In this document: one piece after another, positions 13,406 to 54,987 of the stretch | Position numbering within the stretch: the first letter of the stretch is position 1 | How the letters are laid out: the number at the start of each line of letters is the position of its first letter | Program-made: the position numbers and the translations under genes | From: Candidatus Gastranaerophilales bacterium | GTDB taxonomy: Bacteria; Cyanobacteriota; Vampirovibrionia; Gastranaerophilales; Gastranaerophilaceae | Assembly: GCA_944322675.1 (NCBI GenBank) | Contig: CALUPO010000001.1 | Coordinates: 124,001 to 188,000, forward strand | Length of the DNA: 64,000 bases | Direction: 5' to 3' | Notes under the pieces: generated by a model | Seen by the model: the letters and a program-made list of their open reading frames with translations, nothing else | Told to the model about the DNA's origin: nothing | The model's database searches: none

Positions 13406-13580
13406 AAATATTTTTAAGTAAATTTTAAAAAAAATGTGAAACGAAGCTGCATTAGAACCACCCTCACCCCAAACTTTACGCTTAAAATGGAAAGGGGAAA
13501 TAAAAAAGTTGGAGAATGAGGTCAACAAAGGCAACCCATACGCAGGTTTGAGTAATAGTCACAGACGAAACATTGTCAAA

Positions 13581-13624
13581 GCCTCCTTTTGTTTGAGTGC
13601 ACAAAGTGCACGAGTTAAGGAGGC
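13581..13624 (-). repeat. Module A two-level hairpin, copy 1
   Basis: The outer stem is GCCTCCTT (13581-13588) with AAGGAGGC (13617-13624). The inner hairpin is GTGCAC-AAA-GTGCAC (13597-13611). The segments between the stems are the conserved single strands also seen in all other copies (AACTC and TCAAACA when read on the minus strand). A further hairpin, GCAACTTTT with AAAAGTTGC, lies at 13675-13696. Confidence 0.7.
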
Positions 13625-13802
13625 TTAAGTTGAGTCATGTGAATATACGAAAACCAAGTGGGTTGCGGTTTTGTGCAACTTTTGCGTAAAAGTTGCCCCG
13701 TCCGGAGGACATTAAAATATTTTTAAATAATTTAAAAAAAATCGTAAAATAAAATAACCCCACCCGGAGGACATTAACTTTCGTGTGTGTGTGGGGGGGG
13801 AT

Positions 13803-13834
13803 ATGGGGGGGGAGGCTTTGCCTCCCCCCCCCAT
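13803..13834. repeat. G/C-tract palindrome, copy 1
   Basis: A run of eight G then AGGC, a TTT loop, and GCCT followed by nine C form an almost perfect hairpin in AT-rich DNA. Equivalent palindromes occur at 34697-34730 and 35967-35997. Confidence 0.8.
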
Positions 13835-13846
13835 AAATACTAATTC

Positions 13847-13934: not shown

Positions 13935-14113
13935 GAAGTTAAACAGAGTAACCCCGTCCGGAGGACATTAAAATATTTTTAAATAATTTTTTGAGAAAAA
14001 TTTTAAATAATTAAAGAAAATTAAAGCCTTTCAGGTGGAGGTACTTTGTGTGGACAAAGTGCCCAAAACCGTAACCCGACTTGTCACTCACATTCTCACT
14101 AAACTCAACTCAA

Positions 14114-14153
14114 GCAGCCTTAACTCGTGCTTCGCACTCAAACAAAAGGCTGC
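14114..14153 (+). repeat. Module B two-level hairpin, copy 1
   Basis: GCAGCCTT (14114-14121) pairs with AAGGCTGC (14146-14153) around the inner hairpin GTGC-TTC-GCAC (14127-14137). The single strands AACTC and TCAAACA flank the inner hairpin. Compared with module A, both arms of the outer stem have changed together. Confidence 0.7.
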
Positions 14154-14971
14154 CTGTTGTTGTTTCGTTAAGCGAATTTCCGGACGGGCGAAGTCCCGGG
14201 TAGCGAAAAGCCGAAGCCGACAGCACGAAGTGCGACAGGCGAAGTGCTTTGAGCTTGAAGGAAATTCAAGAGAGTGATAATTGTTCGTGCCTGCGTATGG
14301 GTTACATTTATTGACTTCATTCTACGACTGTTTAGTATTTTTTAAAAAATCGTGAAACAAAGCTGCCCCGCCTTGAGGACGTTAAAATATTTTAAATAAT
14401 TCTTAAAAAAAATAATTGTTCGTGCCTGCGTATGGGGTTACATTTATTGACTTTATTCTACGACTGTTTAGTATTTTTTAAAAAATCGTGAAACAAAGCT
14501 GCCCCGTCCGGAGGACATTAAAATATTTTTAAATAATTTTTTGAAAAAAATAAATACAGTTGCCCCGTCCGGAGGACGTTAAATTAATTTTAAACTTAAC
14601 AATTTTGCCACCCTCACCCCCGCCCTCACGCTTAAAGGGAGAGGGGGAAAGGAAAAGACTCTCACCCCAGCCATCAAGCTAAAAAGGAAAGTGAGAATAA
14701 AAAAGTTGGAGAATGAGGTCAACAAAGGCAACCCATACGCAGGTTTGAGTAATAGTTTTTAAATAATAATAAAAATATAAAGCCTTTCAGGCGGAGGCAC
14801 TTTTTGTGGAAAAAGCGGATTTCCGTACGGGCGAAGCCCCGGGGAGCGAAAAGCCGAAGCCGGCAGCACGAAGTGCGACAGGCGAAGTGCTTTGAGCTTG
14901 AAGGAAATTCAAGAGGGTGCCCAAAACCGTAACCCGACTTGTCACTCACATTCTCACTAAACTCAACTCAA

Positions 14972-15011
14972 GCAGCCTTAACTCGTGCTTCGCACTCAAA
15001 CAAAAGGCTGC
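14972..15011 (+). repeat. Module B two-level hairpin, copy 2
   Basis: Same structure as at 14114-14153: GCAGCCTT (14972-14979) with AAGGCTGC (15004-15011), inner hairpin GTGC-TTC-GCAC. Confidence 0.7.
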
Positions 15012-15257
15012 CTGTTGTTGTTTCGTTAAATGATAATTGTTCGTGCCGGCGTATGGGTTACATTTGCTGACTTTATTCTACAATTGTTTAGTATTTTTTA
15101 AAAAATCGTGAAACAAAGTTGCCCCGTCTGGAAGACATTAAATTAATTTTAAACTTAACAATTTTGACACCCTCACCCCCGCCCTCTCCCTCAAGGGAGA
15201 GGGGGCATGAGATTTAAAAAAAAATAAACAAAATAACCCCGTCTGGAGGACATTAAA

Positions 15258-15471: not shown

Positions 15472-16632
15472 TTGAATTTTTTTAGAATTTTAATATTTGC
15501 AATAATATTTTTATTAAGTCAAGTTAGTGCATTTTCTCAAAATTATTTAAATACAATACAAATTGACTCAAATGAAGGTGGCAATCAAATTACACTAAAA
15601 ACTATAAATGGAGTTGAAGTCGTTAAAGAAGTTAAAAATGATAACTTAATTGTACTTGAACTTAAAAATATAAAAGCGGACCAAAAATTAAGCACTATAT
15701 ATAATAACGTTTTACATGTAAAAAATGTAATTGTAAAAGAACCTGCAAAAAACAACCTTCAAATTATAATTGAAGGTGAAAATATTGCCAATACAGGTAT
15801 TGTCGTGCTTCCAAGTGAAATAAAATCAAACAACAGCAAAAATATAGTGCTTGACAAACCTATAAATGAATATGAGCCAATAATTCCTTTTAATGAAAAA
15901 ATTAACTTATCAAATAACAATACTTTTTTTGAATATTTAAACACAAATTTTCAACTTAATAAAAGAAAAATTACCTATTTAAAACATCTTATAAAAAATA
16001 ATTTTGATAATTTAAATCTTGATTTTATATTGTATGCAATTGTCTTTTTCCTTGTGATATTAGCCGGAAATAAATTTATAAATAAAGAAAATGAAAAAGA
16101 TATAAAAGGCATAGGTCTTTCTCAAAGTTTAAAAAATAAAAGGTCTTACGATATAACAATAAATGATAAAACAATTCCTACCCTTAGAAGTTTAAAATCA
16201 ACATCAAACAATAATTCAGAAATTATATCAAGACAATATGGCATGAATGAATATAAAAAAAGTGAAAAAAATCCATATTCTAATACAACAGCTCAAGATA
16301 AATTAACAAAACAACAAATACCTGATGAGCTTTCAAAAAGAATAAATAAAAATGAAATTGTTATACCAAAAAAAGATATAAAAACCACAAACTTAAAATC
16401 ATCACAAAAAGCATTAAATAAAGCAGCTTTATCATCATCTGCTTCTTATAATCAAAAACAACAAAAAATAGCAAGCAAGCCTTATATCACAAATAGTGAA
16501 AGAAATATTGATATAATTGACGGTCAAAAGTTTTTAGATTCAATGACAAAAATATATGAACAATCAGGTCGCAAAGATCTTGCATTAAACATAAAACGTG
16601 TAAGTCAAGTTAAGAAAAATAAAAAATTATAA
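15472..16632 (+). CDS. Exported, membrane-anchored protein with AMIN-like N-domain
   Basis: The start is a TTG at 15472 preceded by GCGGGGGATAG; the nearby GTG at 15465 is out of frame. The 386-aa product opens with a signal peptide (FFRILIFAIIFLLSQVSAFS, cleaved near residue 22). A beta-rich domain follows (about 25-125: TIQIDSNEGGNQITLK, VLELKNIKA, LQIIIEGENI) that resembles AMIN domains, which bind peptidoglycan or secretins. A transmembrane helix at about 185-205 (LDFILYAIVFFLVILAGNKF) precedes a long, lysine- and serine-rich, probably disordered cytoplasmic tail. The AMIN assignment rests on pattern only. The stop overlaps the convergent recombinase gene by 6 bp. Confidence 0.55.
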   Translation: MNFFRILIFAIIFLLSQVSAFSQNYLNTIQIDSNEGGNQITLKTINGVEVVKEVKNDNLIVLELKNIKADQKLSTIYNNVLHVKNVIVKEPAKNNLQIIIEGENIANTGIVVLPSEIKSNNSKNIVLDKPINEYEPIIPFNEKINLSNNNTFFEYLNTNFQLNKRKITYLKHLIKNNFDNLNLDFILYAIVFFLVILAGNKFINKENEKDIKGIGLSQSLKNKRSYDITINDKTIPTLRSLKSTSNNNSEIISRQYGMNEYKKSEKNPYSNTTAQDKLTKQQIPDELSKRINKNEIVIPKKDIKTTNLKSSQKALNKAALSSSASYNQKQQKIASKPYITNSERNIDIIDGQKFLDSMTKIYEQSGRKDLALNIKRVSQVKKNKKL

Positions 16633-17544
16633 ATTCCTTGGATGTGTTTTGTTATATACGTCTTTTAAGTGTTTGGAACTAACATGGGTATAAATTTGAG
16701 TATTTGATATACTTGAATGCCCCAAAAGTTCCTGAACAACTCTAAGATCAGCACCTTTTTCAAGCATGTTTGTTGCAAAACTATGACGGAATTTATGAGG
16801 AGTCACATTTTTGGGCAGTTGAATTTGTTTAATAATATTTTTTAATATTTTCCTTACACTTTGAGCCTGCAGCCTATAACCTGTATTATTTACAAATAAA
16901 GGGGAATCATTTTTTATTTTTTCACTATTTCCGTTTTCATAAAGCATACCTCGAACTGTTTTAATATACGTTTCTAAAAATCCTTTAGCTGTATTTGAGA
17001 ATAATACTATACGCTCTTTATTACCTTTGCCTAAAACTTTAATTTCATTTTCTTCCAAGTTTAAATTTCCAAAATTTAATGAAGTCAATTCAGAAACACG
17101 AATACCGGTTGAATACAAAAGCTCAAAAATAGTTCGATTACGAAATCCCTGAACCGTATCAATAGGAATTGTATTTAAAATTTGATTAATTTCGTTTTCC
17201 GTTAAAACAACAGGCAATTTCTTAGGTGACTTTGGAGCAATGACACCTTTCAACGGATTATTTTTAACAATATTTTCACGATATAAATACTTGTAAAACA
17301 TCCTTATTGCCGAAATTTTACGTGTTATTGTAGTTTTAGAATATTCAAACCTTGAAATAAAATTTAAATATTCTTTAATTTTTTGATAAGTTACATCTTC
17401 AAGTTTAAATTGGTCTAAATAAATTATAAAACTTAAAATATCAGACCCGTAAGCACGCACTGTATGTTTTGAAAAATTACGTTCAATTTCCAAATATAAT
17501 TTAAAATTGTTTAAATATTCTCTTGAAATATCACAAGTGGACAA
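16627..17544 (-). CDS. xerD: Tyrosine recombinase XerC/XerD
   Basis: A 305-aa site-specific recombinase, the usual size for Xer proteins that resolve chromosome dimers. The N-terminal SAM-like domain (FKLYLEIERNFSKHTVRAYGSD) is followed by a catalytic domain with all expected residues: Arg in TGIRVSELT, Lys in LGKGNKERIV, His-x-x-Arg in TPHKFRHSFAT, His in LLGHSS and Tyr in TQIYTHV. The TTG at 17544 is taken as the start because GGAG lies six bases upstream; the reading frame stays open to 17649, but that extension is hydrophobic, unlike the family, and precedes the ribosome-binding site. Whether it is XerC or XerD cannot be told. It is not adjacent to any obvious phage gene, so a housekeeping role is likely. 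Confidence 0.88.
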   Translation of the reverse strand: MSTCDISREYLNNFKLYLEIERNFSKHTVRAYGSDILSFIIYLDQFKLEDVTYQKIKEYLNFISRFEYSKTTITRKISAIRMFYKYLYRENIVKNNPLKGVIAPKSPKKLPVVLTENEINQILNTIPIDTVQGFRNRTIFELLYSTGIRVSELTSLNFGNLNLEENEIKVLGKGNKERIVLFSNTAKGFLETYIKTVRGMLYENGNSEKIKNDSPLFVNNTGYRLQAQSVRKILKNIIKQIQLPKNVTPHKFRHSFATNMLEKGADLRVVQELLGHSSISNTQIYTHVSSKHLKDVYNKTHPRNL

Positions 17545-17694
17545 AATACACTCCAAATTATTTTTCAACAATATTATAATTATATTAATACTTTTTGTAA
17601 AGTTTTGTAAAAAAATATATAAAAACCTAACAAAAAAAAATATGTTCACTTGTTACATGAATGACACCCTAAGAATTTTTTGATGAGGATAAAA

Positions 17695-19923
17695 ATGAAA
17701 ATAAGTCATAAAGAAACATTAATTGAGAGAAGTACAACACGAATATCGGGTGAAAAGCCTAAATGGCGAAGTGCCTCAGAAATTGATGGTAATTTTATTA
17801 ATAAAGAAAATACAAAGAAAGAGCCTTTAAAACAATCATCGTCTTCGATAAGTTTTGGAGGCTCTTTTTTAAAGGATTTTAAAAAAATCGTAAAATTTAT
17901 AAGCGGATATAATGACGAAATAAGTGATTATAAAAAAATATTTGAAAAAATAAAAAAAACAACCGGCATTAACCCGCAAGAACTTCTTGATTCTGTAAAA
18001 AAACAATTGCCTAAAAATATAAAAATAAATAACAATAAAATACAATTTAAAGAAAAAGGTGTCTTACGTTTAGTATATGAAGCAGCTATATATCCTATTG
18101 TTAAAATGCCTTTTGATATACTAAACTGGGCATTAAAAGGTTCTTCAAATATTGTTAAAAAATTATTTAAAACTAATAAAAATAATATTTTTGATACTTT
18201 ATATAATACAAAATTTTTGAAAAATATCCGTAAAAAAGAAAATGCAGAAAGAAAATATAATGCGTTAAAAGGTATGGTTGAGCAGGTGTCAAAAGTTATG
18301 AATAAGGCTGATGCTGATGATACCATATTTAAAATATCGCAAAAGTTTTTTGACCCGAAAGCCGGCAAATATAACACAGTTCATGAACGTTCGTTAAATC
18401 GTCTTGTATCAGGTGGTGTTTCTACATATTTTTTGGCTAATGATGCTTATAACCTTGCAAGTTTAGTTACAAACGACCCAAATGAATCAACAAAAGAAGG
18501 TAAAATAAGACGTAATCAAGAACTTGTAAGGATTGGAACTACTGCTTATCTTCAACTTATTACGCTTGGTGCTTTAACACAAATTGTTAATGCCACAAGC
18601 TGGGCTTCTCCTTTAATAATTGCAACAACGGTTTTATTAAGTGAAACTTTGTCCCGTACACTTGCAGGAAAACCTGTATTTTTTGTAAACAAAGAACAAG
18701 CACAAAAATATAATCAGATTGAAGAAAAGAAAACAGGTAAAAAATTTAACTATACAGCCAAAACACCTAAAGACAATAATAAAGAAGCAAAAAAAGAAGA
18801 TGAAAATGGATTTTTCACTTTAAATACCTTATATAAATATATAGGTTTATCAATTGCAATAGGACTTGGCGGCAAGGGTTTAAAGAAAATACCTCAAGTT
18901 AAAGATTTTATGGATAAAGTTTCAAATAAATACAATCAAAAATATAGACTACTTACAACAAAGACACTTGAGGTAGATAAATCCGAATTTGAAAAACTAA
19001 CTAAAAAATTAAGAGATAACGGATTTAATAAACTTGCCGATAATTATGAAGAAATGATTAAAAGTATAAATAAAACTGATAAAATTCCTGATAAAATCAA
19101 ACTGGGAAAAATAAATCGCAAATTTGCACAACCTATAGTTGATTTTTTACTGGGCATTCCAAGATTTGCAAAAAGTTGTTTAATGTTTCCATATAAAGTA
19201 TTTTCAAGTTTAGTAAGCGGCATAACATCAATTGATGCAATTGAAAAATCAAAAGTTGGTGCAGGTATAAGAAATTTTATGGAACTTAATCCAAAAGCCA
19301 TTAAAAAAGCTCCAAAAGGTATCGATAAAGTTGGCATTATGACAAATGCATATAGGGATTTAAATGATAAATTAAGTTTAAGTGATAAAGAGTTTAAAAA
19401 ATATGTAAAAAATTGTTCATATAATTCATTTAATAACCAAAATACTTCATCAAAATCAAATGCAGATATGGCTTTAGTTACAAAACTTATCTCAAGCGGT
19501 GTGGCAAGTTTATTCCTTATTGCTGATAATTATAATATGGTAATGTTAAAATCCAATGGTGAAGACAAAGAAGGTGCATGGCAAAAGGCTAAAGAGCGAA
19601 TTGTGCAGCGTATTTCAAGTTTAATGTATTCATCAATGTTTATAAAACTATTTAACTCAACATTTGAAGCACAGTATCATAAGTCATTAATCGGTATGTC
19701 AGCTATAACAGGAACATCACAGGCTGTTATGGAAGTAACATCAAGAAGTTCAATAGGCATGCCAATTTTAAAAAAATCAAAAGAACAAATTGAACAACTT
19801 GAAGAAAAAAACGAAAATGCACGTGGTTTAAAAGGTAAATATTTCCAATTTATGTCAAAATTAATAGGTAAGAAAAAGCTCTCACAACGCACAACACCAA
19901 AAACTAATATCCAAAATGCTTAA
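17695..19923 (+). CDS. Large membrane protein with internal duplication, unknown function
   Basis: A 742-aa lysine-rich protein that I do not recognise. The ATG at 17695 follows GAGG at good spacing; a TTG and an ATG lie just upstream in frame but before that site. The N-terminus is polar and reaches an SSSSISFGGSFLKDFKKIV segment near residue 50. Two similar halves follow: VSGGVSTYFLANDAYNLASL (about residues 232-251) and ISSGVASLFLIADNYNMVML (about 598-617), each followed by a charged stretch and hydrophobic helices (TTAYLQLITLGALTQIV; SSLMYSSMFIKLFNS) and an ETLSR/EVTSR turn. The repeat implies an ancient duplication. Location in or at a membrane is likely. Confidence 0.6.
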   Translation: MKISHKETLIERSTTRISGEKPKWRSASEIDGNFINKENTKKEPLKQSSSSISFGGSFLKDFKKIVKFISGYNDEISDYKKIFEKIKKTTGINPQELLDSVKKQLPKNIKINNNKIQFKEKGVLRLVYEAAIYPIVKMPFDILNWALKGSSNIVKKLFKTNKNNIFDTLYNTKFLKNIRKKENAERKYNALKGMVEQVSKVMNKADADDTIFKISQKFFDPKAGKYNTVHERSLNRLVSGGVSTYFLANDAYNLASLVTNDPNESTKEGKIRRNQELVRIGTTAYLQLITLGALTQIVNATSWASPLIIATTVLLSETLSRTLAGKPVFFVNKEQAQKYNQIEEKKTGKKFNYTAKTPKDNNKEAKKEDENGFFTLNTLYKYIGLSIAIGLGGKGLKKIPQVKDFMDKVSNKYNQKYRLLTTKTLEVDKSEFEKLTKKLRDNGFNKLADNYEEMIKSINKTDKIPDKIKLGKINRKFAQPIVDFLLGIPRFAKSCLMFPYKVFSSLVSGITSIDAIEKSKVGAGIRNFMELNPKAIKKAPKGIDKVGIMTNAYRDLNDKLSLSDKEFKKYVKNCSYNSFNNQNTSSKSNADMALVTKLISSGVASLFLIADNYNMVMLKSNGEDKEGAWQKAKERIVQRISSLMYSSMFIKLFNSTFEAQYHKSLIGMSAITGTSQAVMEVTSRSSIGMPILKKSKEQIEQLEEKNENARGLKGKYFQFMSKLIGKKKLSQRTTPKTNIQNA

Positions 19924-22928: not shown

Positions 22929-23335
22929 TTTTTATATAACGGGCTTGTGCCCCTCATCCTTTCTATTCTTTCACCAACGTGGATTGATTTTACCATTTTT
23001 ATTAATCAAGTCCAATTTCTACTTTTTACTTCATATTTATTTGTTTTAGGTTTTATATAACGGGCTTGTGTCCCTCATCCTTTCTATTCTTTCACCAACG
23101 TAGATTGATTTTTGTTTTAATTATATTTATATTTAATGTCCTCCGGACGGGGTTACTGTCTTGGATTTGCTCCACGCTCACAGAGTCTCACCTTTTGAGC
23201 TTCGCTCAAGTCGGCTCGTTCTGTTCGCTATCCGGATTCGCTTCACTCCATCCGTACGCAAATCCGCTTTTGTGGAAAAAGTAACCAAAACCGCAACCCG
23301 ATTTGCTGCTCACATTCTCACTAAACTCAACCCGA

Positions 23336-23376
23336 GCAGCCTTAACTCGCACTTTGTGCTCAAACAGACAGCTGCT
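23336..23376 (+). repeat. Module C two-level hairpin, copy 1
   Basis: The outer stem is GCAGC (23336-23340) with GCTGC (23371-23375), extendable by one pair on the outside. The inner hairpin is GCAC-TTT-GTGC (23349-23359), whereas module B has GTGC-TTC-GCAC: both arms of the inner stem are exchanged. The single strands AACTC and TCAAACA are kept. An identical copy lies at 23756-23795. Confidence 0.7.
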
Positions 23377-23755
23377 TGCTAACGTTTCATTAAGTGATAA
23401 TTGTTCGCAGCTGCATATGGGTTGCATTTATTGTATTAACTTTTAGTTCATGATTTTCCATTTTTTCCCTTTTGATTCAATGAGCTAACGCCCCTCATCC
23501 TTTCTATTCCTTCACCAACGTAGATTGATTTTTGTTTTAATTATATTTATATTTAATGTCCTCCGGACGGGGTTACTGTCTTGGATTTGCTCCACGCTCA
23601 CAGAGTCTCACCTTTTGAGCTTCGCTCAAGTCGGCTCGTTCTGTTCGCTATCCGGATTCGCTTCACTCCATCCGTACGCAAATCCGCTTTTGTGGAAAAA
23701 GTAACCAAAACCGCAACCCGATTTGCTGCTCACATTCTCACTAAACTCAACCCGA

Positions 23756-23796
23756 GCAGCCTTAACTCGCACTTTGTGCTCAAACAGACAGCTGCT
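23756..23796 (+). repeat. Module C two-level hairpin, copy 2
   Basis: Identical to the copy at 23336-23376, exactly 420 bp downstream, as part of the tandem duplication. Confidence 0.7.
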
Positions 23797-24084
23797 TGCT
23801 AACGTTTCATTAAGTGATAATTGTTCGCAGCTGCATATGGGTTGCATTTATTGTATTAACTTTTAGTTCATGATTTTCCATTTTTTCCCTTTTGATTCAA
23901 TGAGCCAACGCCCCTCATCCTTTCTTGTTCTTTCACCCTCTTGCTTTTATCTTTATAATATGCTACCATAACTTTGTAACAAATGCAACATGTATTTTTT
24001 AAAACATATAATTTTTGTTACAATTAAAATTATAATTTGTACATAAATAAAAAATTATAAATTTTCAAAAAGGTGAGGAATAAA

Positions 24085-34504: not shown

Positions 34505-34548
34505 GTTTAATAATTCATAATACTTTAAATATAAATATAAAAATATAA

Positions 34549-34600
34549 AAAAGAAAGATAAAAAAGCTTATAAATGCTTTTTTATCTTTCTTTTTTTATT
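34549..34600 (+). terminator. Strong terminator after murE
   Basis: A 19-bp perfect stem (34549-34567 with 34576-34594, ending in GC next to the loop) has an 8-base loop, and its 3' arm runs into TTTTTTT. It ends the ftsI-murE unit 31 bp before repeat island 3. Confidence 0.9.
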
Positions 34601-34631
34601 ATCTCAAAATGTAATAGAAAAAATAAATTTA

Positions 34632-34658
34632 GGGACTTATATACAAGTTTACACAAAG
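34632..34658 (+). repeat. Left terminal inverted repeat of island 3
   Basis: Begins GGGACTTATATACAAG and continues TTTACACAAAG. It pairs with 36227-36253 with three mismatches. Confidence 0.65.
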
Positions 34659-34696
34659 CTGCCCCGTCCGGAGGACATTAACTTTCGTGTGGGGGG

Positions 34697-34730
34697 ATAT
34701 GGGGGGAGGCAAAGCCTCCCCCACCCATAT
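34697..34730. repeat. G/C-tract palindrome, copy 2, loop inverted
   Basis: The arms are ATATGGGGGGAGGC and GCCTCCCCC, continuing to CCCATAT with one extra A. The loop is AAA, whereas copies 1 and 3 have TTT in the same place. Confidence 0.75.
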
Positions 34731-34740
34731 ATTACTAATT

Positions 34741-34829
34741 CCCGCCGTAGGAAAGACGCCCGATTGAAATGAGGGCGGATACCTCAGGCGGGAAAAAAGC
34801 TAAAGCCGACAGCACGAAGTGCGATAGGC
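34741..34829 (+). repeat. Module D, two nested hairpins, copy 2
   Basis: CCCGCC with GGCGGG (34741-34792) encloses AGG-CCT and GCCC-GGGC. The second hairpin (34805-34829) is GCC-GACA-GCAC-GAA-GTGC-GATA-GGC. The outer stem is one pair longer than in copy 1. Confidence 0.7.
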
Positions 34830-35008
34830 GAAGTTAAACAGAGTAACCCCGTCCGGAGGACGTTAAATTAATTTTAAATAATTTTTTGAAAAAAATTTTA
34901 AATAATTAGAGAAAATTAAAGCCTTTCAGGCGGAGGCACTTTGTGTGGACAAAGTGCCCAAAACCGTAACCCGACTTGGCACTCACATTCTCACTAAACT
35001 CAACCCAA

Positions 35009-35048
35009 GCAGCCTTAACTCGTGCTTCGCACTCAAACAGAAGGCTGC
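35009..35048 (+). repeat. Module B two-level hairpin, copy 3
   Basis: GCAGCCTT (35009-35016) with AAGGCTGC (35041-35048), inner hairpin GTGC-TTC-GCAC. The preceding hairpin 1 is GGCACTTTGT (34935-34944) with ACAAAGTGCC (34949-34958) and loop GTGG. Confidence 0.7.
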
Positions 35049-35239
35049 CTGTTGTTGTTTCGTTAAGTGATAATTGTTCGTGCCTGCGTAAGGGTTACAT
35101 TTATTGACTTTATTCTGCAACTGTTTAATAAGTCTTGAAAAAGACAAGTGTTGAAATAAACCAAATGTTGTTGAGTATAATTAAAATATACAACCCATAC
35201 GCAGGTTTGAGTAATAGTCACAGACGAAACATTGTCAAA

Positions 35240-35283
35240 GCCTCCTTTTGTTTGAGTGCACGAAGTGCACGAGTTAAGGAGGC
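35240..35283 (-). repeat. Module A two-level hairpin, copy 2
   Basis: GCCTCCTT (35240-35247) with AAGGAGGC (35276-35283), inner hairpin GTGCAC-GAA-GTGCAC. It is oriented opposite to the adjacent module B, so the two face each other. Confidence 0.7.
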
Positions 35284-35681
35284 TCAAGTTGAGTCGTGTG
35301 AATATACGAAAACCAAGTGGGTTGAAAGGTTTTGGTTACTTTTGGCTTCAAGCGGATTTGCAGTTGGCTTTGCCTGATTGTGAGGAACTGAACGGAGTGA
35401 AACAATTTTAAAAAAATTGTGAAACGGAGTTGCATAGTTCCGAACGCTGCATAATCCAAGACAGTAACCCCGTCTGGAGGACATAAATATATTTTTAAAT
35501 AATTTAAAAAAAATAATTGTTCGTGCCTGCGTATGGGTTACATTTATTGACTTTATTCTACGACTGTTTAATAAGTCTTGAAAAGACAAGTGTTGAAATA
35601 AGTCAAATGTTGTTGAGTATAATTAAAATATACAACCCATACGCAGGTTTGAGTAATAGTCACAGACGAAACATTGTCAAA

Positions 35682-35725
35682 GCCTCCTTTTGTTTGAGTG
35701 CACATAGTGCACGAGTTAAGGAGGC
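35682..35725 (-). repeat. Module A two-level hairpin, copy 3
   Basis: GCCTCCTT (35682-35689) with AAGGAGGC (35718-35725), inner hairpin GTGCAC-ATA-GTGCAC. The companion hairpin 1 is GCAACTTTGT (35776-35785) with ACAAAGTTGC (35790-35799), loop CCAC. Confidence 0.7.
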
Positions 35726-35966
35726 TCAAGTTGAGTCGTGTGAATATACGAAAACCAAGTGGGTTGTGGTTTTGTGCAACTTTGTCCACACAAAGTTGCC
35801 CCGTCCGGAGGATATAAATATATTTTTAAATAATTTTTTGAAAATAATTGTTCGTGCCTGCGAATGGGTTACATTTGTTGACTTTATTTTACGACTGTTT
35901 AGTATTTTTTAAAAAATCGTAAAACACAGTTTCCCCGCCTTGAGGACATTAATTTTCGTGTGGGGG

Positions 35967-35997
35967 ATATGGGGGGAGGCTTTGCCTCCCCCCATAT
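35967..35997. repeat. G/C-tract palindrome, copy 3
   Basis: A perfect 14-bp stem: ATATGGGGGGAGGC (35967-35980) and GCCTCCCCCCATAT (35984-35997), loop TTT. Confidence 0.85.
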
Positions 35998-36008
35998 ATT
36001 ACTAATTC

Positions 36009-36095
36009 CCGCCGTAGGAAAGACGCCGGAATGAAATGAGGGCGGATACCACAGGCGGAAAAAAAGCCAAAGCCGACAGCACGAAGTGCAATAGG
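36009..36095 (+). repeat. Module D, two nested hairpins, copy 3 (decayed)
   Basis: CCGCC with GGCGG is kept (36009-36058), but the AGG-CCT pairing is changed to AGG-ACC-AC and the inner GCCC is now GCCG. The second hairpin (36071-36095) keeps GCC-GGC and most of GCAC-GAA-GTGC. This copy is the most worn of the three. Confidence 0.6.
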
Positions 36096-36195
36096 CAAAG
36101 TTAAACAAAGCTGCCCCGTCCGGAGGACATTAAATTAATTTTAAATAAATTTTAAAAAAAATAAACAAAATAACCCCGTCCGGAGGACATCAAAA

Positions 36196-36253
36196 TATTG
36201 AAACTTGTATATAACTTTTCACAAAACTTAGTGTAAACTTATATATAAATCCC
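36196..36253 (+). repeat. Right end of island 3
   Basis: It contains ACTTGTATATAACTTTT and CACAAAACTTAGTGTAAA and ends AAATCCC. It matches the right end of island 1 (15258-15315) closely and the left end 34632-34658 in inverted orientation. Confidence 0.65.
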
Positions 36254-36278
36254 ATTATTTTTATATTAAAATATAATT

Positions 36279-53640: not shown

Positions 53641-53669
53641 TTGCCATATTAGGCAAAATAATGTATAAT
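53641..53669 (+). promoter_or_regulatory. Promoter of the IS1-like transposase
   Basis: TTGCCA (53641-53646), a 17-base spacer, TATAAT (53664-53669), then AAGGAGG and the ATG at 53694. Intact although the gene is broken. Confidence 0.6.
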
Positions 53670-53693
53670 ATTCTTAAAAGAAGGAGGTTTTTA

Positions 53694-54246
53694 ATGTCAA
53701 TATGTCCCCATTGCCAAAGCAATAAAGTAAGAAAAAACGGAAAAAATAGAGGAACCCAACGTATGCTTTGTACAAATTGTGGCAAAACATTCCCACAAAA
53801 GCCTAAACGTTACACAAAAGAAGATAAATATAAAGCTTTAATGATGTATTTAAACAATGTAGGTATACGGAAAATAGCACTATTTTTTGGAGTAAGTGCT
53901 ACTGCGGTATTAAAATGGATAAAAAATGCTCATGTATTATTACAAGAGTTATTGGCTAACTTTAATCCTTTGGTTTCAGATAAAGCTGATATTATAGAGT
54001 TGGATGAAATATATACCTATGTAAAAAAAAGAAAAATAGAGCAGTCGTATGGACTGCTTATTCTAGACGACAGATGCGTGTTATTGCATTTACCATCGGA
54101 GAAGGGCTGAAACCTCACGTTATGACAAAAAGTGAAACTCATTTAATAGAAAGTTCTAATAATTTAATAAGAGATAATATAGCAAGGTTTAACAGAAAAA
54201 TTATTCTTCCACAAAGACCTGATTCTCAACACAATGAAAAGTTGAC
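53694..54246 (+). pseudogene. IS1-family transposase remnant: frameshift, internal deletion, lost end
   Basis: The first part has an InsA zinc ribbon (CPHCQSNKVRKNGKN, LCTNCGKTF) and a helix-turn-helix (GIRKIALFFGVSATAVLKWI). The InsB part begins IIELDEIYTYVKKRK. At the A8 (54023-54030) and A5 runs the original frame is lost; the adjacent frame reads AVVWTAYSRRQMRVIAFTIG, the expected InsB sequence. It then jumps to KSETHLIESSNNLIRDNIAR, skipping about 40 residues that normally hold the second catalytic Asp. The end merges into repeat-island sequence at about 54247. The element cannot be active. Confidence 0.8.
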
Positions 54247-54440
54247 AGTCTCCCTCCGGACGGGGTTACTCTGTTTATTTTTTTTAAGAATTATTTAAAA
54301 TTAATTTAACGTCCTCCGGACGGGGCAACTTTTACGCAAAAGCTGCCCAAAACCCCAACCCACTTGGTTTTCGTATATTCACACGACTCAACTTAAGCCT
54401 CCTTAACTCGTGCACTCAAACAAAAGGAGGCGTATTTTGG
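54247..54440. repeat. Repeat island 4, reversed and short
   Basis: Two cores in reverse orientation (about 54250 and 54311) are followed by hairpin 1, GGGCAACTTTT (54323-54333) with AAAAGCTGCCC (54338-54348). A module A in plus orientation follows: GCCTCCTT (54397-54404) with AAGGAGGC (54424-54431). Its inner hairpin has lost one arm (a single GTGCAC). It abuts the broken transposase on one side and the gene at 54466-54987 on the other. Confidence 0.75.
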
Positions 54441-54465
54441 AAGCTTATTATATGTTGTAGTTACA

Positions 54466-54987
54466 CTAACCATTATGCCTTGCTTTATATGATTCTAAAA
54501 CAAAATCATAACTTGAAGGTTGAAATTCACTTACAGGTGTGCTCAAAAGTGAAGGATGTAAAAATGCAAATTCATCAAAAAATTTCGGTCTATGACTTAA
54601 ATCAGAAGAACGTTCAATTGGCGTTTCAAATTCAGAATCTTCATCTTCATTACCGAAATAAATTACCTCCGGCAATGACTTTAATGATTTTGGTGTCGTC
54701 GTATTCTGGTTTTGCTCTATAATATATTGTTCATTACTTTGAAAAGACTCAACATCACTCTCTTTTTTTGGATTACAACAATTAAAAAGATATTTAAAAA
54801 AGTTTTTTATACCATTTTTTTTATCGTTTTGATTTGTTGTATTCAACATCTTTTCACCATTATTTATTATTTTATTTTTATTTATAGAATATAATAAAGG
54901 TGTTTTTATCATTTGTTGCTGTGATTTATTATAGTTTACGATTATATTTGAAGTATCTAATGCATTCCTATTTCTACTAATTCTCAT
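54466..54987 (-). CDS. Unknown soluble protein, 173 aa
   Basis: The ATG at 54987 follows AAAGGAG at good spacing; the open frame upstream is a Lys-rich run before this site. The protein starts MRISRNRNALDTSNIIVNYN, is rich in Asn, Lys and Ser, and has an amphipathic segment GIKNFFKYLFNCCNPKKE with a Cys pair. An acidic stretch containing PEVIYFGNEDEDSEFETP and a C-terminus with FDEFAFLHPSLL follow. It is probably largely disordered. There is no signal peptide or recognised domain. YFGNED is only loosely like the SF-K/G-G tags of other proteins here. Confidence 0.5.
   Translation of the reverse strand: MRISRNRNALDTSNIIVNYNKSQQQMIKTPLLYSINKNKIINNGEKMLNTTNQNDKKNGIKNFFKYLFNCCNPKKESDVESFQSNEQYIIEQNQNTTTPKSLKSLPEVIYFGNEDEDSEFETPIERSSDLSHRPKFFDEFAFLHPSLLSTPVSEFQPSSYDFVLESYKARHNG

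Follow-up and report, generated by a model that had tools for sequence, protein, structure and literature searches.

Here, we describe an interspersed palindromic repeat with nine copies in the 64-kb window (the whole stretch of DNA that was analysed), a finding which is confirmed and which is larger than the first-pass annotation of the same DNA had described. The element is repeated, homologous throughout one bacterial family, covarying in its stems and nearly devoid of G-U pairs; it lies in intergenic DNA with no strand preference and is present or absent at given sites in different species. It is probably a non-autonomous interspersed DNA repeat that is mobilised in trans and whose shape is selected at the DNA level.

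The core of the element, H2, is one imperfect hairpin of about 130 nt, which runs from AACCC to GGGTT in each of the nine window copies. The outermost stem, AACCC/GGGTT, has the base context (G/T)(C/T)AACCC...GGGTT(A/G) and is followed inward by a variable stem of 5 bp (GGCAC/GTGCC, GCTGC/GCAGC, GATTG/CAATC or GGTTT/AAACC). Further inward lie the variable stem P1 and then the conserved strands CTAAAYTCAAC/GTTTCRTTAAG, which are paired apart from one A-A and two pyrimidine mismatches. The next stem, P2, is variable again and encloses the fixed, unpaired AACTC and TCAAACA, while the innermost part is P3, a small variable hairpin. The first-pass annotation had proposed a two-hairpin module, with stems and loops that are correct by sequence, but its extent has to be revised, as the presumed outer stem is P2, a single inner helix of the ~130-nt hairpin. 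On its 5′ side, H2 is accompanied by AAAACC, by the hairpin H1 (9–10 bp, with loops such as ACGC and GTGG) and, in many copies, by the 4-bp mini-hairpin H0 (GTCC-TCC-GGAC or GCCT-TTC-AGGC). H1 had also been said to covary, and indeed its stem variants GCAGCTTTT/AAAAGCTGC, GCAACTTTT/AAAAGTTGC, GCACTTTGT/ACAAAGTGC and TTACTTTTG/CAAAAGTAA all keep their pairing. The complete H0-H1-H2 unit measures about 250–300 bp, and two units can be joined 3′ end to 3′ end into an inverted-repeat composite of about 480 bp.

A covariance model derived largely from other genomes gave exactly nine matches in the window (E 2.7e-7 to 5.8e-28), which are the nine copies reported before. Three sequence types, A, B and C, are represented; the bit scores below are R2 scores, whereas H0, H1 and the interrupted arms were read from the sequence. 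The first copy is of type A (13533–13664, minus strand, 100.9 bits) and is followed by two type B copies on the plus strand, at 14079–14195 (86.4 bits) and 14932–15059 (120.8 bits). In the former, the 3′ arm of H2 is split by a second repeat at ~14171–14275, and in the latter the copy's own H1 is split in the same way at ~14798–14919. This second repeat is about 105–120 nt long (CGAATTTCCGGACGGGCGAAG...GGAAATTCAAGAG, with inverted ends; 14171–14275 and 14798–14919 in the window) and sits, in the H2 arm as in the H1 arm, after AAG and before GTG; H0-H1-H2 copies split likewise are also found elsewhere in the genome of the window. The two type C copies at 23296–23423 and 23716–23843 (both plus strand, 112.7 bits) are the first and second copy in a tandem 420-bp duplication, a direct repeat of 97% identity.

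The third island (34505–36278) contains three copies. The mini-hairpin H0 GCCT-TTC-AGGC (34921–34931, plus strand), common to 5/5 aligned composites, and the H1 GGCACTTTGT-GTGG-ACAAAGTGCC (34935–34958, plus strand), one of the variants that keep their pairing, lie 5′ of the type B copy at 34969–35096 (plus strand, 129.4 bits, E 5.8e-28). Together with a type A copy at 35192–35323 (minus strand, 99.2 bits), the latter forms a convergent composite, whose central spacer of 95 nt (35097–35191) has an equal length in five composites. A further type A copy at 35634–35765 (minus strand, 100 bits) has its H1, GCAACTTTGT/ACAAAGTTGC, at 35776–35799 (minus strand), with a stem that occurs 11 times in the genome, and an adjoining H0 region at 35803–35813 (minus strand; GTCCGGAGGAT, a variant of GTCCGGAGGAC, repeat family D3). 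The ninth copy (54357–54481, plus strand, 43 bits) is a degenerate type A, in which the inner hairpin is deleted and the 3′ arm is gone after AAAGGAGGC. As stated before, there is no credible gene over the copies, and the overlapping ORFs are small and not common among them.

The stems of H2 covary strongly. Two-sided changes were observed for all 38 of the 38 pairs among 69 distinct copies from many genera, a count that is inflated by kinship among the copies. In the same set, the covariation score was 0.571, compared with 0.139 after shuffling and no more than 0.09 when the partners were slid, and 91% versus 59% of the cells were paired; the underlying alignment relied on an earlier model of 29 pairs and leans to those pairs, although the nine pairs added after alignment, which lie outside that model, covary too. 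Within genome G107 alone, P1 and the loops are near-identical between copies, while the P2 stems are different yet self-complementary. Across 75 copies from many genera, AACTC was invariant and TCAAACA nearly so, in line with the original observation that paired bases change together while the single strands stay fixed. Selection on a folded RNA or single-stranded DNA, in which the single strands stay fixed and the stems covary, is strongly supported.

Complementarity could also be kept in a functionless dispersed repeat, namely by template switching at the quasipalindrome or gene conversion between its arms, combined with recombination, and not by selection. Such template correction would likewise yield pure Watson-Crick pairs. 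The type A copy L053:4818–5016 (G000:C15:23863) carries an originally imperfect outer stem that is now perfect (AACCCATACGCAGG/CCTGCGTATGGGTT), which suggests either template switching or that inverted copies have recombined. Recombinants with mismatched halves occur as well: the chimeras at G000 C12:24602, C19:22230, C20:28553, C27:9611 and C4:23234 join a 5′ half from one type with a 3′ half or an inner hairpin from another at the AACTC/TCAAACA core, and in several of them stem pairing is gone. However, correction would erase loops and mismatches, yet the copies retain AACTC, TCAAACA and both the A-A and the UC/CU mismatches. Since these unpaired positions are kept across genera, selection has to act on those copies from which new ones arise, and a repeat shaped by correction and recombination alone appears unlikely. 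A folded form that is selected and read at its loops is probably the simpler account compared with drift alone.

Structured RNAs are classically recognised by strong covariation together with fixed internal loops, and the element may accordingly be read as a structured noncoding RNA, or a cis-acting element of mRNAs, that is expressed from many loci and whose fold is the functional RNA. The folding energies agree with this reading (MFE z-scores of −2.1 to −5.5 as RNA for five types). Folded as DNA, two copies gave z-scores of −2.9 to −6.1, and the fold is stable as DNA on both strands. The composition of the stems argues against an RNA. Helices 3–7 comprise 1662 Watson-Crick cells, 11 G-U and 21 A-C, which corresponds to a G-U share of 0.7% among standard pairs, compared with 13% in the tRNA stems of the same genomes (26 G-U among 194 standard pairs, the other 168 being Watson-Crick; p about 2e-18 versus the element; a control formed by the acceptor and T stems of only 18 tRNAs from the same loci). 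A-C mismatches, which here are the G-U pairs of the opposite strand, are no rarer than G-U, and both are scarce, so that neither strand tolerates wobble or behaves as RNA. As Infernal favours G-U, this deficit is, if anything, conservative.

The surroundings of the copies point in the same direction. Relative to co-directional neighbour genes, the orientation of the element is even (co:anti 17:17), and the reading as a linked gene or cis-regulator was rejected, as there is no recurrent neighbour gene family. Promoter-like sites showed no excess over shuffles. A search of the window with Rfam 15 gave no match at the gathering threshold and, at E<=1, only far sub-threshold ones. About 100 copies per genome, arranged in tandem and inverted arrays, likewise speak against an RNA. 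The structured-RNA option of the first-pass annotation is therefore not supported: with few G-U pairs, no strand bias, no partner gene and empty sites in congeners, DNA fits much better, and an RNA function seems quite improbable.

The element is over-represented in the gaps between convergent genes (21/60 versus 50/343; p 4e-4), a BIME-like placement. This would suit a chromosomal site for a nucleoid or topology protein that benefits the host at gene ends, as with gyrase and IHF on REP/BIME. Nevertheless, such a role is very unlikely, given that copy number in related genomes is very uneven (0 to about 100, with G000, G107, G080, G077 and G013 rich in copies and G009, G014, G057 and G062 free of them), that copies are missing at the matching sites of congeners and that a binding site in double-stranded DNA gives no reason for the arms to be complementary. 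The preferred reading, a DNA repeat mobilised in trans, was further compared with the boundaries and the distribution of the copies. In G107 and G080, the repeated unit extends from about −200 to +100 around AACTC, with unrelated flanks and no reading frame; in some G080 composites, the similarity is longer on the downstream side. Neither of the two G107 copies tested occurs in the orthologous intergenic gaps of G099 and G149, which measure 35–85 bp compared with 360–540 bp in G107. In the congener G284, another subtype occupies the first of these sites in inverted orientation, and the second has none. Loss could explain part of the absence at orthologous sites.

Islands 2 and 3 were also considered as empty sites relative to genome G001 and were rejected. 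The type C copy of island 2 is single, orthologous and stable in G001 and is duplicated in the genome of the window, which indicates that ordinary recombination accounts for some of the growth. Relative to G001 C16:1149 and C2:41443, synteny is broken at island 3, whose flanking genes for a Mur ligase and for an AIR-synthase-like protein are located on separate contigs in G001 with no element beside either. The first-pass annotation had named matching ends without RNA as favouring mobile DNA. The repeat is present with a clear DNA signature, but no matching ends with a target-site duplication were detected; neither such a duplication nor an exact junction could be defined, and the diverged flanks would hide any duplication. 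Regarding the arrangement of copies in the genome of the window, the convergent B-A pair with a gap of about 95–96 nt occurs five times, divergent pairs have a gap of about 154 nt, and tandem arrays have a unit of about 341 nt.

The genome of the window (2.1 Mb, 41 contigs) gave 104 model matches, one of which is an overlapping copy on the opposite strand, leaving about 103 copies. Several of these are located at contig ends, and the assembly therefore undercounts them. The search of related genomes that had been recommended revealed a single family: with a wider covariance model, copies were detected in at least 110 of 289 sampled genomes of the class and in at least 62 of 244 genomes of the phylum, all in the window's own family, presumably the Gastranaerophilaceae, with both counts being lower bounds from 12 or 14 candidates scored per genome. 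In a pattern scan, the named genomes belonged to Candidatus Gastranaerophilales/Melainabacteria from gut and rumen. Two hits carried labels of other taxa. The Flavobacteriaceae hit L202 was rejected as a chance match, while L220 (JAMPCZ010000075.1), labelled Muribaculaceae, holds a true copy with a flank similar to another element-bearing contig and is probably a mis-binned Gastranaerophilales contig. No match to the element was present in phage and plasmid records; the 54 matches of an IMG/VR pattern scan did not include any with the fold and mostly came from one phage region with a chance hairpin. Literature searches, which covered open-licence papers, returned no published description of the element.

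Several enzymes were evaluated as possible mobilisers. Y1 transposases (Y1_Tnp, PF01797; RAYT) occur in 46/146 genomes, some of them element-bearing, and their presence does not track the element; none was found in the genome of the window or in the high-copy genomes G107, G080, G077 and G013, and RAYT/Y1 was rejected on this ground. Reverse transcriptases were rejected as well, being both present and absent in either class of genomes; G080 has one reverse-transcriptase fragment, at a contig end. Tyrosine recombinases showed no excess in element-rich genomes: the high-copy G080 has only two PF00589 members, of XerC/XerD size, and the genome of the window has seven PF00589 matches, among them a XerC-like one at 16627–17649, the only one subtyped. 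A broken IS1-family transposase gene (53661–54240; NF033558, below cut-off) runs with its 3′ end into island 4, and it was rejected as the autonomous partner because it is broken and no such hairpin ends were recognised on its other side. As mobiliser, this leaves a transposase that has been lost or is present only intermittently, XerCD, an HUH or DDE enzyme that escaped recognition, or some process linked to replication.

Combining these data, we infer that the folded strand is recognised by a protein, that the strand becomes exposed and that the element is mobilised in trans. Selection on the H2 core would act on its folding as single-stranded DNA, which would become exposed at the replication fork or through cruciform extrusion. 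Its stems would then be free in sequence as long as Watson-Crick pairing is maintained, while AACTC, TCAAACA and the mismatches inside CTAAAYTCAAC/GTTTCRTTAAG would stay fixed by being read, unpaired, by the protein. The element would most likely function as a substrate for an enzyme that processes DNA strands in trans, copying or moving units into intergenic DNA, and homologous recombination may afterwards produce the tandem arrays, chimeras and islands. More specifically, and only as a tentative possibility, a Gastranaerophilales-specific enzyme or the housekeeping XerC/XerD might move or copy the folded H2 by its unpaired segments, making it an attC-like substrate with no integron.

Pneumococcal BOX elements, like the ERIC/RU-type repeats of enterobacteria, are short, non-coding, intergenic palindromic repeats with a modular structure and no known transposase. 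The element resembles ERIC/RU and BOX in being short, non-coding, intergenic, palindromic, modular, family-wide and present in dozens to hundreds of copies, a likeness which is functional only and implies no sequence relation. Unlike in these repeats, sequence identity between genera resides in its unpaired strands, whereas its stems are exchanged, and it consists of three successive hairpin modules, H0-H1-H2, restricted to Gastranaerophilales. Mobile repeat units of enterobacteria, 127–168 bp in length, are MITE-like (PMC2759123). With REP/BIME/REPIN sequences, the element shares the extragenic location, the occurrence as singles and inverted doublets, the logic of single-stranded DNA hairpins and the high copy number (PMC3116915, PMC2817692). 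However, the REP/REPIN unit of 20–40 nt is about 10-fold smaller than the 250–300 nt of the element (~130 nt for H2). REP has an invariant GTAG/CGTC-type tetranucleotide ahead of its palindrome, none of which was evident in the element, albeit with no systematic scan, and REPINs have a cognate RAYT, in contrast to the five Y1_Tnp-free genomes named above. attC sites likewise combine a recognised single-stranded DNA fold with variable stems and fixed extrahelical features (PMC3053210, PMC11641012), the recognition being presumed for the element, but their boxes RYYYAAC...GTTRRRY differ from the ends AACCC...GGGTT, and the element has no cassette genes. MITEs are similar in being non-autonomous inverted-repeat composites with no ORF (PMC10969869), whereas for the element no parental IS with matching ends and, in its diverged flanks, no target-site duplication was found. 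Since it departs from REPINs in size and RAYT and from attC in its boxes, the element is classed as an interspersed palindromic repeat; it is non-coding, intergenic, palindromic, multi-copy and family-wide, as ERIC- and BOX-like repeats are. Its behaviour places it alongside ERIC, BOX and REP, while its putative recognition logic resembles that of attC.

What looks like a DNA element here shows covariation just as strong as that of a classical structured RNA, which is relevant for any pipeline that calls noncoding RNAs by covariation alone. The near lack of G-U pairs provides a simple test to separate such a DNA element from a structured RNA. For gut Melainabacteria, an abundant family-wide repeat is added, and its mobilising enzyme could be sought with the fixed loops as bait. 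Near island 1, the window additionally contains an ORF at 15472–16632 (386 aa) with no NCBIfam or Pfam match and another at 17680–19923 (747 aa) with no NCBIfam match. A G-rich palindromic repeat (GGGGGAGGCTTTGCCTCCCCC) was observed in the same islands as the element, at 34697–34722, 35972–35997 and ~13797–13837.
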